This document shows positions 1,614 to 5,341 of a stretch of 64,000 nucleotides of DNA, piece by piece (position 1 is the first letter of the stretch; every line of letters starts with the position of its first letter). The position numbers were made by a program, and so were the translations under genes. Below the pieces are notes generated by a model. The model was not told the DNA's origin. It made no database searches and was given only the letters and a program-made list of their open reading frames with translations. This stretch comes from Candidatus Nitrosymbiomonas proteolyticus (GTDB lineage: Bacteria; Armatimonadota; Fimbriimonadia; Fimbriimonadales; Fimbriimonadaceae), in the NCBI GenBank assembly GCA_017347465.1, contig AP021858.1, positions 2,684,472 through 2,748,471 on the forward strand. The letters are read 5' to 3'.

Positions 1614-1636
1614 GCTTCAACCTGCCAACGCGGTGG

Positions 1637-1666
1637 TTGACATAGTAGACATATATTGCCTACTCT
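1637..1666 (+). promoter_or_regulatory. Candidate promoter/operator of the capsid operon
   Basis: A perfect -35 hexamer TTGACA (1637-1642) is followed after 18 bases by a weak -10 (TACTCT, 1661-1666). Overlapping it are a direct repeat GACATA-GTA-GACATA (1639-1653) and an inverted repeat AGTAG (1644-1648)/CTACT (1660-1664). Such repeats across a promoter suggest a repressor or activator site. A strong ribosome binding site AAGGAGGTGA follows at 1683-1692. Inference from sequence only. Confidence 0.45.
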
Positions 1667-1694
1667 CACGTTGCATCTCATCAAGGAGGTGAGC

Positions 1695-2633
1695 GTGAAC
1701 CCAGAAAACGAATACTCACAACACAGCGCGGGCGAAATCGAGCGGCTGCTCGCCGAGGCGGGTCCGGGGTATCGGGGGCGAAGAGTTTCGCTCTCGGACC
1801 CTCGACGGAAGGCCCTTGCCGAGGCGGCACGGAGCGCTGGAATCGCCGCGCCCCAATACCTTGAACAGGCCACGCGGTGGATCGACCGGCCCGCAAAGCT
1901 CTTCGAGGCTGGCAGCTACCCCGACAAGGGCGTCGAAATCACGGACGAGCACCTCAAGGCCCTCGCCGAGAGGTTCGACCTGCCCGTTCCCGTACTGATC
2001 GAGCACTCCAACAGCCCGTTGCACATGGGCTACTTGACTCAAGTCGAGGCTCGCGGTTCGGAGCTTCATGGCACGGTCTCGCTGACGGAAGAGGCGAACC
2101 GGCTCATCGAGAGTTCCGGCGCAAGGTCGCTCTCTCTCGGTTTGGCGAGCGATCTTTCGGAGATTCGGGAGGTCAGCATCGTCTCCAACCCGCGAGTCGC
2201 CTCGGCGCAGCTCTTTTCGGGCTCGATTGAGTTCAGCGGCGCTTTGATCGGCGGTGACGAGCGCGGCGACGACCCCGTTTGGCGGAGCAAGTTCGAAGCG
2301 TTGGAGCGTTCGATGCGCCTTGCGGGCGCCGAGCAGCAAGTCCAGCAGTTCGTGCGCGAGGGCAAGCTCACGCCGGCGCAAGTGGAGTTCGCCTGCGCGC
2401 TGCTGGAGTGCGAACAGACCCTCGACTTCGGGGAGGAAAAGCGGCCGGTTCGAACTCTCTTACTCGCGCTCATCGAGCGCCAACCGCCGCTCAAGCTGTT
2501 CGGCGAACTTGCCCCGGAGGGCGAGCCCTCGGGCCGAGCACCCGAACTCGGACCCGACGAGGCTGCGTTCTACCGGCGCTACTTCCCCACTCTCGATCTC
2601 GACGAAATCGCCGCGAGGCGAAATCGGCAATGA
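1695..2633 (+). CDS. Phage capsid maturation protease with C-terminal scaffold (Mu gpI-like)
   Basis: Serine-type prohead protease that would cleave head proteins during capsid assembly. Residues about 60-195 carry the recognisable part: KLFEAGSYPDKGVEITDEHL, then PVPVLIEHSNSPLHMGYLT with the candidate catalytic His, and SSGARSLSLGL with the candidate Ser, followed by EVSIVSNPRVASAQLF, a pattern seen in Mu I-type and related capsid proteases. The C-terminal 110 residues are charged and helical, as expected of a fused scaffold. The GTG at 1695 is preferred over the ATG at 1656 because AAGGAGGTGA lies just upstream. First gene of the capsid operon. Confidence 0.8.
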   Translation: MNPENEYSQHSAGEIERLLAEAGPGYRGRRVSLSDPRRKALAEAARSAGIAAPQYLEQATRWIDRPAKLFEAGSYPDKGVEITDEHLKALAERFDLPVPVLIEHSNSPLHMGYLTQVEARGSELHGTVSLTEEANRLIESSGARSLSLGLASDLSEIREVSIVSNPRVASAQLFSGSIEFSGALIGGDERGDDPVWRSKFEALERSMRLAGAEQQVQQFVREGKLTPAQVEFACALLECEQTLDFGEEKRPVRTLLLALIERQPPLKLFGELAPEGEPSGRAPELGPDEAAFYRRYFPTLDLDEIAARRNRQ

Positions 2634-2666
2634 CCTACCCATTCTCAACCCCTTAGGAGGCCCTTC

Positions 2667-3107
2667 TTGGCAGCACTCAGTCAACCTTACGAAACCTTCG
2701 AAAAGCCCGGCCTGGTGGTCAGCTACAAGCTGTCCAACATCAAGGCCTACAAGGGCGCCCTTTGCGCCATCGACAGCAACGGCTATCTGGTGGTGCTCGA
2801 CCATGCTACGGCCAACCTCAAGTTCGCGGGCGTGGCCAACGAGACCGCCGATAACTCCGGCGGGTCAGCGGGCGACAAGTCGCTCAACCTGACGAAAACC
2901 GGATCGTTCGTTTTCAAGGCCGCGACGGGATTCTCGCCGAGTCAGGCGGACTTGGGCAAGGAGGTGTACGCGAACACCGATTGGGAGGTTCAGACCTCGA
3001 CCGGAGGCCTCACGAACACCTATAAGGTCGGCACGATCGTCGGCATCGAGACCACCTCGACGGGAGCTTCCGGCGTCCGCGTGCGGATCGACAACTACAC
3101 CCAGTAA
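2667..3107 (+). CDS. Capsid decoration / cement-like protein
   Basis: A 146-residue protein between the capsid protease and the major capsid protein, the usual place for a decoration or head-stabilising protein. It is beta-rich and small-residue-rich, with AYKGALCAIDSNGYLVVLD near the start and VGTIVGIETT near the end, resembling the compact beta folds of DUF2190-type cement proteins. The start is TTG at 2667, with AGGAGG six bases upstream. The function comes mainly from position; the family match is tentative. Confidence 0.6.
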   Translation: MAALSQPYETFEKPGLVVSYKLSNIKAYKGALCAIDSNGYLVVLDHATANLKFAGVANETADNSGGSAGDKSLNLTKTGSFVFKAATGFSPSQADLGKEVYANTDWEVQTSTGGLTNTYKVGTIVGIETTSTGASGVRVRIDNYTQ

Positions 3108-3176
3108 CTCGGGCCCCGGACGTCGTGAAGAGGCGTCCCCTGGCACGACCTACGCATTCAAATAGGAGGATTCTCT

Positions 3177-4112
3177 ATGGCTCTTACCCCGAGCGACATT
3201 CCCGACCTGTTGCTACCCGGCTTGAAGGCCGAGTTCGCGCAGGCTTACAAGAACGAAGTGGACCACAGCCCCGCCGAGCGGATTGCGACCACGATCCAGA
3301 CGACATTACCGATTCAGAAGTACGCCTGGCTAGGAACGGTCCCGCCGATGCGAGAGTTCGTCGACGAGCGACGCCCTTCGGGTCTCGCCGCCAACGCCGT
3401 GACCATCGAGGACAAGACGTTCGAGTCCACCATCGCCGTCGAGAGGAAGGCGATCGAGGACGATCAACTCGACCTGATCCGATTGCGCATCCGCGACATG
3501 GCGTTCCGCGTCTCCATGCACCGCCATCAGATGATCGTACAGGCGCTCTCCGACGGGTTCGCGCAGAACGGATACGACGGCGTGAGTTTCTTCAACACGG
3601 CTCACCCGGCGGGAACTGGCACACACCCAAACCGCACGACCAAGGCGCTCGACGAGGCGGCTTTGGCGGAGGCGATCTCGACGATGATGGTCGTCCCGGA
3701 CGAACACGGCACACCCCTCGGGATCGCCCCGGACACGCTCTTGGTCGGGCCGAAACTGCAATGGACCGCGCTCGAGCTCGTCGAAAGCCCGGTGGTGGTG
3801 TACAAGGGCAACGACAGCGACACCGCTCCGTCGACTCCGTACTCGAACGCCTTTCAGGGCAGGCTCCGCGTCGTAGTCAGCCCGTTCCTGACCGGCACGA
3901 GCGACGACTACTGGTTCCTGCTGGACACTCAGCGCCCGATCCGGTCGGTGATTCTGCAGCAACGTAGCGACGTTCCGGTGGAGTTCGGCGCGCTCGACAA
4001 CACAAGCGGCAGCGAGAGCGCGTTCATGCGGGATCGGTTCTACTACGGCGTCCGGGCTCGCTACAACGTAGGCTATGGGCTCTGGCAGACGGCTTACGGA
4101 GCGATCCTGTGA
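3177..4112 (+). CDS. Major capsid protein (Mu gpT-like)
   Basis: Forms the icosahedral shell. At 311 residues it is the usual size for the Mu gpT family. Family-like stretches are LLPGLKAEFAQAYKNEVD (12-29), YAWLGTVPPMREFVDERR (45-62), TFESTIAVERKAIEDDQLDL (80-99), and YDGVSFFNTAHP (about 125-136). The C-terminus FYYGVRARYNVGYGLWQTAYGA is also typical. TAGGAGGATTCTCT precedes the ATG. The next gene overlaps its stop by a GTGA junction, so translation is coupled. Confident in family; whether it still builds particles is unknown. Confidence 0.88.
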   Translation: MALTPSDIPDLLLPGLKAEFAQAYKNEVDHSPAERIATTIQTTLPIQKYAWLGTVPPMREFVDERRPSGLAANAVTIEDKTFESTIAVERKAIEDDQLDLIRLRIRDMAFRVSMHRHQMIVQALSDGFAQNGYDGVSFFNTAHPAGTGTHPNRTTKALDEAALAEAISTMMVVPDEHGTPLGIAPDTLLVGPKLQWTALELVESPVVVYKGNDSDTAPSTPYSNAFQGRLRVVVSPFLTGTSDDYWFLLDTQRPIRSVILQQRSDVPVEFGALDNTSGSESAFMRDRFYYGVRARYNVGYGLWQTAYGAIL

Positions 4113-4369
4113 ACTGGACCGAGATCGCTCTGATCGCTTCGCTCTTGGGGCTGGGCGGAGTCGCCGGGGCCTTGATCTCGACGGTTTCGAGCGCAGCTCG
4201 GGTGTTGGATTCGTACGAAAACCTCTCCTCGACTTTCCGAAACTATCTCTCGGAGAACCGGGACCCAGGAGTCGGTCCTCTCGCCGTCGCTCTGAACGAG
4301 TTCGAGAACGAGGTCTCTGCGTTCCGGCTGGCGCTGAACCGGCTCAAGAAGGTGCTTCGAATCCGATGA
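4109..4369 (+). CDS. Small membrane/coiled-coil protein of the capsid operon (unknown)
   Basis: An 86-residue protein starting with GTG inside the stop of the capsid gene. Residues 5-30 (EIALIASLLGLGGVAGALIS and following) form one membrane helix. The rest is polar and probably helical, ending in basic KKVLRIR. No family recognised. A single N-terminal helix plus a coiled coil could be a holin-like or membrane-anchoring protein, but it lies inside the head cluster rather than beside lysis genes. Confidence 0.6.
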   Translation: MNWTEIALIASLLGLGGVAGALISTVSSAARVLDSYENLSSTFRNYLSENRDPGVGPLAVALNEFENEVSAFRLALNRLKKVLRIR

Positions 4370-4623
4370 GCCCGAGCGCCGAACTGCTAGCGCTCGTTGG
4401 CAGCTTCTTGGCGACTGCCTTCGGTCTGGTGCGGCTGGCGCTTTCCGCGCACCGCGCCATGACCGAACGGTTCGTTGACTTCCTCGAAAGCTCTTTGCGG
4501 AGGCAAGAGGAGGTCAACACGCACTTCGAAGCGGCCATCGAGCAACTTACGGAGAACGTCCGCGAGAACTCGACTCTCTTGGGGAGGGTCGCCGAAAGGC
4601 TCAACGTTGGAGGTCAATCATGA
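4366..4623 (+). CDS. Second small membrane/coiled-coil protein of the capsid operon (unknown)
   Basis: An 85-residue protein coupled by ATGA to the gene before and after it. Residues 5-27 (AELLALVGSFLATAFGLVRL and following) form a membrane helix. Residues 35-80 look like an amphipathic coiled coil. It has the same layout as the preceding protein, so the two may be a duplicated pair or a two-part complex. No known family recognised. The tight coupling on both sides argues that it is a real gene although it is short. Confidence 0.6.
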   Translation: MSPSAELLALVGSFLATAFGLVRLALSAHRAMTERFVDFLESSLRRQEEVNTHFEAAIEQLTENVRENSTLLGRVAERLNVGGQS

Positions 4624-5042
4624 GTCTCAGCGTCACATCGTCCCGGGTCAAGGAGAAGTGCGGGATCACGGTGTCGGACTATGACGCCACGATCTCGAAC
4701 CTCATTGGCGAGATCACGCCGGTCGTGGAGTTTGCGATTCGGGGAGAGCACCTCGCGGACACGGGTAACACGGGCCTACAAGCCACGCTGAAGCTAGGTC
4801 TAACGGAGGTGATCTGCGGGGAGCTCCTCGAACAGATCGCTCGCGAGCCAGGCGCCTTGGAATCGGTCAGCATCGGCGATCTTGCGCTTTCCCCGCCTCC
4901 GCCCCAAGTTTGGAGCACCTTGGCGGGGCTCAAGCGTCAGGGCTGGGCGCGGTTGAGGCCCTTTCTGAAGCCCGACGTCGCAGGCGTCCTCGCGACCGTC
5001 CTTACGGGCGGATCGAAGATTCCGGAGGAAAGCGGGTTATGA
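4620..5042 (+). CDS. Head-tail connector-like protein
   Basis: A 140-residue protein. Its N-terminal 60 residues (VKEKCGITVSDYDATISNLI, then EITPVVEFAIRGEHLAD) resemble the helical start of gp6-type and DUF1320-like connectors, in which VKxxLxIxxxDxDxxIxxLI is a common pattern. These proteins sit on the portal ring after DNA packaging. It follows the capsid gene at the place where Mu-like phages carry gp36. ATGA overlaps on both ends. Assignment rests on pattern and gene order. Confidence 0.55.
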   Translation: MSLSVTSSRVKEKCGITVSDYDATISNLIGEITPVVEFAIRGEHLADTGNTGLQATLKLGLTEVICGELLEQIAREPGALESVSIGDLALSPPPPQVWSTLAGLKRQGWARLRPFLKPDVAGVLATVLTGGSKIPEESGL

Positions 5043-5341
5043 CGCCTCTTCAGCGAAGGTTCAAGTACGTGATCGAACGCTTGGGTGACCCTTTCGAGGT
5101 GGACGCTCAGCAGCGAATGGGGGTGTTTGCCGTGCTCGCCGGCGCCAAGGCTTCGGATTTGCTAACGGCGGCCGAGCAACAGGGCGCAGCGATGCCGATG
5201 TACCTCGCTTACGTGCCCTTTGACGACACGACGGCCCTCTCCGAGACGGTCGCATGGAATGGGCGGTCGCTGGCCGTTGCCAAGGCGATCGACTGCTCGT
5301 TTCAAGGCGCGACGATCGTGCGAATTCTCGCGCTCACCTAG
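5039..5341 (+). CDS. Small neck/head-closure-like protein, last gene of the capsid operon
   Basis: A 100-residue basic-start protein (MTPLQRRFKYVIERLGDPFE) beginning at the ATG that overlaps the previous stop, with GGAGGAAAG just upstream. The middle and end are beta-rich with no membrane helix or signal peptide. Size and position fit a head-closure or tail-terminator protein. An upstream in-frame start at 4910 would overlap the connector gene extensively and is not preferred. No tail gene follows. Family not recognised with certainty. Confidence 0.5.
   Translation: MTPLQRRFKYVIERLGDPFEVDAQQRMGVFAVLAGAKASDLLTAAEQQGAAMPMYLAYVPFDDTTALSETVAWNGRSLAVAKAIDCSFQGATIVRILALT

Follow-up and report, generated by a model that had tools for sequence, protein, structure and literature searches.

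Gene transfer agents (GTAs) are defined by caudoviricete-derived proteins, a fully endogenized genome that is often divided over multiple loci and inherited mostly vertically, and caudovirion-like particles that package mostly random host DNA and deliver it to other cells; their own whole genome cannot be packaged (PMC9662315). Five genetically distinct types have been described, none from Armatimonadota (PMC11409702), and no report of a GTA from Armatimonadota or Fimbriimonadales was found in the literature searched. VSH-1 of Brachyspira is induced by DNA-damaging agents and its genes likely lie at multiple loci (PMC11409702, PMC9662315). With respect to regulation, GafA has been shown to autoregulate, and a LexA-like repressor acts upstream of the GTA activator (PMC9638019, PMC9632790).

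We analyzed a 64,000-nucleotide stretch (the window, C1:2684472-2748471) of the single-contig, 2.81 Mb genome of Candidatus Nitrosymbiomonas proteolyticus (G000), order Fimbriimonadales. It contains a capsid gene block, for which a preceding sequence-only reading had considered a split GTA with modules elsewhere, a domesticated shell, or the residue of a recently deleted prophage. We consider it likely that this block provides the head module of a GTA-like system, a relative of tailed phages that has been domesticated, is inherited vertically and is distributed over at least three loci. Like RcGTA and other GTAs, it combines tailed-phage head, neck and packaging genes that are chromosome-fixed, multi-locus and co-diversifying with the host (PMC9662315). 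Unlike in RcGTA, the major capsid protein (MCP) is of the Mu gpT type, without a match to the HK97-like family PF05065; RcGTA has one main head-tail cluster, whereas here head and packaging operons lie up to 1 Mb apart; and the particles and transfer of the Fimbriimonadales system are predicted from its genes. The resemblance to Mu-like phages (PF10124; PDB 8rkc, 8rkx) extends to the order protease, structural protein, gpT MCP and to a Mu-like portal and large terminase (TerL), but the block is without transposase, repressor and tail genes. VSH-1 is similar by description in having dispersed genes, with the link to DNA damage here being a candidate one drawn from promoter half-sites, and belongs to a different phylum. 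The system is best read as a lineage separate from the five described GTA types; its functions appear GTA-like, and its membership among GTAs is provisional.

A seven-gene head operon between host genes

The head operon comprises seven intact open reading frames on the plus strand (positions 1695-5341 of the window, from its ORF list), the last five of which (p3-p7) are joined by 4-base overlaps; genes beyond the ORF list were called with a simple codon-bias caller. The sequence-only reading had described seven intact, coupled genes covering protease/scaffold, decoration, major capsid, connector and neck, and this description was borne out by profile matches and predicted folds. The first gene, p1 (1695..2633, +; 312 aa), encodes a Mu gpI-like prohead protease/scaffold (phrog_976, E = 1.3e-13, and a weak match to Pfam Mu-like_Pro), and homologs were recovered from the great majority of head operons. 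H104, S147 and E159 of p1 are invariant in an alignment of 36 sequences and constitute a plausible candidate catalytic set; when the p1 profile was searched against the PDB by sequence, no relative was detected. The p2 product (2667..3107, +; 146 aa) is a decoration-like virion structural protein (phrog_1731, E = 2.9e-19), 47-73% identical to its 33 aligned relatives. The MCP is encoded by p3 (3177..4112, +; 311 aa) and belongs to the Mu gpT family (PF10124, E = 3.8e-60), its profile also matching PDB 8rkc (E = 6.5e-44). A search for the HK97-type capsid PF05065 returned zero matches in the G000 genome. Two small proteins follow. The first, p4 (4109..4369, +; 86 aa), reads as an N-terminal hydrophobic stretch, a putative membrane segment, followed by helical sequence; it diverges fast (35% identity, E = 4e-8, to the homolog in G111) and is holin-like at best. 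The second, p5 (4366..4623, +; 85 aa), has an N-terminal hydrophobic stretch and a coiled coil, matches coiled-coil families only, and weakly (Pfam/PHROGs), and has homologs in most loci.

The flanks are host genes lying less than 200 bases away, as had been noted: an MFS transporter gene ends 81 bases upstream and a glycogen-synthase gene begins 172 bases downstream, gaps into which an integrase would not fit. Two variants of the operon were observed in close relatives. The same-species metagenome-assembled genome (MAG) G001 has a 97-bp deletion in p6 (L002, ~3220) that puts the C-terminal third out of frame, representing either strain-level decay or an assembly error. In G002, of the same genus as the window (L252:9094-14072), three opposite-strand genes are inserted between p2 and the MCP gene, and the MCP gene so split off has its own upstream GGTTGAC.

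Neck proteins recognized by predicted fold

The last two products, p6 (4620..5042, +; 140 aa) and p7 (5039..5341, +; 100 aa), gave no match in sequence searches (Pfam/PHROGs; profiles against the PDB), and their structures were predicted with AlphaFold (pLDDT 84 and 93, respectively). The top ten PDB entries aligned to the p6 model were all phage neck or portal-region proteins, the best being 9oab_Ea (Z = 9.1, rmsd 2.9 over 90 residues); SPP1 gp15 (7z4w_a) scored Z = 7.2. Since fold matches with Z below ~8 can arise by chance when taken singly, the assignment of p6 as an SPP1 gp15-like head-tail adaptor rests on nearly all high-scoring rows being neck proteins. The p7 model aligned with the T1 stopper (9l0e_A, Z = 10.3, rmsd 2.8 over 88), a lambda neck protein (8xow_f, Z = 9.3) and a chain of the RcGTA particle (6tba_3A, Z = 7.9), indicating a lambda gpFII/SPP1 gp16 fold of the stopper, or head-completion, type. 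Going by these predicted folds, p6 and p7 match a phage neck adaptor and stopper. The presence of a stopper implies a tail attached behind it, either in the past or at present.

Terminase and portal genes at a distant locus

The window had been read as being without terminase and portal genes, and in agreement with this the genome contains a single match each to Portal_Mu (E = 3.6e-66) and Terminase_6N (E = 8.4e-8), side by side on the minus strand at 1.674-1.676 Mb, ~1.0 Mb from the head operon at 2.686 Mb. TerL (443 aa) and the portal (361 aa) are encoded by genes that overlap by 4 bases, with host genes on both sides. TerL also matches PF03237 and PF17289, the latter a model of the RNase H domain. 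Its sequence retains the GRRWGKT and VVDEAAY motifs, along with candidate RNase H-fold acidic residues. In a terminase/portal survey of six complete genomes, terL and portal were adjacent in five (G000, G001, G037, G014 and G063) and apart in the sixth (G098). An NlpC/P60 gene that lies close to the portal was assessed as a possible lysis gene and dropped, because in G037 and G063 its neighborhood, which includes glycosyltransferase genes, lies apart from the portal. Separate Mu-like elements with their own portal, or other prophage-like elements, were seen in G098, G014 and G063 (L175, L177, L178).

These findings bear on the possibility that the block is a domesticated shell, that is, an encapsulin-like compartment or another capsid used for something other than DNA. 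The capsid module does stand on its own, and the partial search for tail genes was negative. However, the MCP is a Mu gpT protein and not a member of an encapsulin family, the prohead protease, adaptor and stopper are retained, and terminase and portal are kept in G000 under purifying selection (see below). A plain shell, as suggested in the sequence-only reading, is thus disfavored, and we regard it as quite improbable.

Order-wide conservation and vertical inheritance

The MCP was detected in 71 of 113 Fimbriimonadales genomes, representing 36 of 47 genera, nearly always in single copy and without internal stops in its frames; the relatives are MAGs filed under Fimbriimonadaceae, Fimbriimonadales or Armatimonadetes, with a few under Chthonomonas. 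In ~40 loci, wherever the locus was long enough, p1-p7 were collinear, and host genes, whose identity varies by genus, began directly past p7. A Fimbriimonadales block was also found on JADZEW010000005.1 (L046), a contig filed under a Methanoregulaceae archaeon MAG, which is probably a binning or labelling error. The MCP tree recovered the host families f1, f2 and f3 with high support, the placement of G002 being weakly determined. MCP distances correlated with those of LexA (Mantel r = 0.72) and of the regulator described below (r = 0.48; p = 0.0001 each). Head, packaging and regulator genes are under purifying selection: dN/dS between G000 and G001 was 0.036 for the MCP, 0.032 for the portal, 0.11 for TerL, 0.11 for p1, 0.18 for p7 and 0 for the regulator, with p5 at 0.34 from few changes.

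The suggestions that the block is selected and that sister genomes would show conserved synteny with dN/dS below 1 thus held, and none of the sister loci that were read showed the block inside a complete prophage. Conservation beyond the strain, the lack of which had been named as grounds for rejecting the proposal, extends across the order. This contradicts a prophage remnant whose other parts were recently deleted. A set of Mu-like genes flanked by host genes at distances of 81 and 172 bases, together with the damaged p6 of the same-species MAG, is what such a remnant might look like, but the same seven genes with the same ends recur across families of the order, most genes have dN/dS of 0.03-0.2, the MCP tree follows the hosts and the packaging operon is held separately. 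We consider a recent deletion extremely improbable. The usual signs of a prophage, an integrase or transposase and strain-specific occurrence, have as their counterparts here flanks without room for an integrase and occurrence throughout the order. The capsid block is part of a virus-derived, predicted DNA-packaging system long kept in Fimbriimonadales, not the leftover of a recent virus.

Could head modules of Mu-like prophages instead have been captured repeatedly and independently, genus by genus? The variation of the flanking host genes among genera would be expected from such events. Against them stand the match between MCP families and host families and the uniformity in kind of boundaries and promoter across loci. 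The closest phage MCPs are also only ~33-37% identical, none exceeding ~37%, and an IMG/VR scan with the MCP returned three remote relatives, all at ≤27% identity. Repeated capture is accordingly very unlikely in our judgment, and a single system inherited vertically remains the preferred reading.

Promoter elements shared by head operon, packaging operon and a regulator gene

The promoter with operator-like repeats proposed in the sequence-only reading is present at 1635..1664 (+) and consists of GGTTGAC (1635-1641, holding the -35 element TTGACA) and the inverted half-sites GTAGAC (1645-1650) and GCCTAC(T) (1658-1664). In many relatives, GGTTGAC followed by GTAGAC-N4-GTCTACTA was found upstream of p1. 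The pattern GGTTGACN{12,19}CTACT has two sites in the whole 2.81 Mb of G000, one before the head operon and the other before a regulator gene at 2.577 Mb, ~110 kb away. When 113 genomes were scanned, the promoter pattern was found mostly before head operons and, in G000 and G009, also before this homologous gene of ~150 aa. With ≤1 mismatch allowed, G026 and G037 have exactly two dyad sites each, at the head operon and the regulator, and G018 has one, at the regulator. The same dyad was also observed in G091 (C33, L119), which has no MCP match; there it separates a gene for an HTH-S24 repressor from a divergently oriented sigma-factor-like gene.

The regulator weakly resembles sigma-70 region 4 (E = 2e-4, under the Pfam cut-off). 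It is present in 71 genomes, as is the MCP, and both occur together in 65 (Fisher p = 4e-17, relatedness ignored). Downstream of the regulator gene, nearly all relatives read have a gene for a zinc-ribbon TPR protein; in G000 this is joined by genes for another TPR protein and for a PilZ protein (L179:8037-11493; C1 2.578-2.581 Mb). GGTTGAC preceded 21 of 41 head operons and 21 of 28 regulator genes, and was accompanied by a half-site in 12 of the 41 and 17 of the 28, respectively. Among 681 other genes serving as background, GGTTGAC was found before 5 (0.7%), a half-site before 33 (4.8%) and both before none. Counted by unit, 7 of 9 head, packaging and regulator units in three genomes carry GGTTGAC, compared to the 5/681 of other genes. 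The prediction that a packaging operon with the same promoter would be found elsewhere in the genome was correct in part: GGTTGAC precedes the terminase-portal operon in G000, G001, G014 and G037, but packaging-operon promoters had no GTAGAC/GTCTAC half-sites.

All 12 lexA promoters examined contain GTAGAC or GTCTAC, often just after TTGACA, at a spacing that differs from that of the head operon, and a dinB-like gene has a weaker site. The half-sites before lexA point to LexA as the candidate repressor, and the system is probably SOS-linked, through a putative LexA-type repressor that would bind at these sites. The arrangement is similar to that of GafA/RogA in that the regulator has sigma-like DNA-binding similarity and, here, shares the sites of the head promoter; it differs in that the candidate repressor, as judged from half-sites, would be LexA itself, the likeness being one of description.

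The search for tail genes

The tape-measure HMM PhageMin_Tail had no match in G000 and sub-cut-off matches only in two relatives. No tail genes were seen by eye in ~260 kb around the modules of G037 and G063. Operons led by GGTTGAC were inspected in ~0.79 Mb (~28%) of G000; apart from the head, packaging and regulator units they consisted of host genes, and none was tail-like. A different arrangement was observed in the deep family f4 (G111:C45, L170 and L180; L170:437-11577, minus strand), where the genes immediately after a homologous p1-p2-MCP-p4 block encode tail-like proteins, a Mu gp36-type connector and an amidase, with terminase and portal not alongside. This arrangement may represent an ancestor in which head and tail were still unsplit, or an element of another kind. 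The 741-aa tail-like protein of G111 had no homolog in 11 other genomes, and the G111 tail-like proteins had no convincing match among the loci compared.

Head, neck and packaging genes found without tail genes, and separate prophage-like elements in some relatives, might be taken as a hint for a packaging module that has no tail or borrows one, in the manner of phage-inducible islands that form capsids and take their tails from a helper phage. However, there is no room beside the block for an integrase, inheritance is vertical, the modules are scattered rather than gathered in an island, and the promoter elements are shared with cellular genes. We consider this explanation improbable. A related one, a lineage-specific, SOS-induced DNA-exporting particle in a phylum from which GTAs have not been described, made from separate head and packaging operons linked solely through a common promoter, and possibly tail-less or relying on the tails of resident phages, is unlikely as well, if slightly less so.

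Discussion

The features found in Fimbriimonadales can be set beside the GTA definition. The gpT MCP, protease, portal, TerL, adaptor and stopper are of caudoviricete derivation. The genes are endogenized at separate places, with the head operon at 2.686 Mb, terL-portal at 1.675 Mb and the regulator at 2.577 Mb in G000, and stand alone in relatives too; their dispersal over ~1 Mb suggests that the system's own genome would be too spread to be packaged whole. Co-diversification with the hosts is seen in the recovery of three host families and in the correlation with LexA. As to a caudovirion-like particle, neck proteins are present, and tail genes were not found in a partial search. An encapsulin-type shell would be without portal and terminase, both of which are present along with the Mu gpT match. 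Together, the separate terL-portal operon, the order-wide block and the vertically inherited MCP support the original suggestion of a split GTA.

The system probably produces particles by which fragments of host DNA pass from cell to cell. We propose that DNA damage or stress would take a LexA-type repressor off the half-sites, after which the sigma4-like regulator would aid initiation by RNA polymerase at GGTTGAC promoters. Proheads would assemble and be matured by the p1 protease, TerL would fill them with host DNA via the portal, and adaptor and stopper would close the filled heads. A tail encoded elsewhere would then complete the particle, which would be released and transfer its DNA to other cells.

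If the system is a GTA, it would add one more case in which a tailed phage was domesticated independently, here with a Mu gpT-type capsid and retention across an order. Because its modules occupy separate operons linked by a promoter and, probably, through the DNA-damage response, the question of why GTAs are kept would become directly testable.
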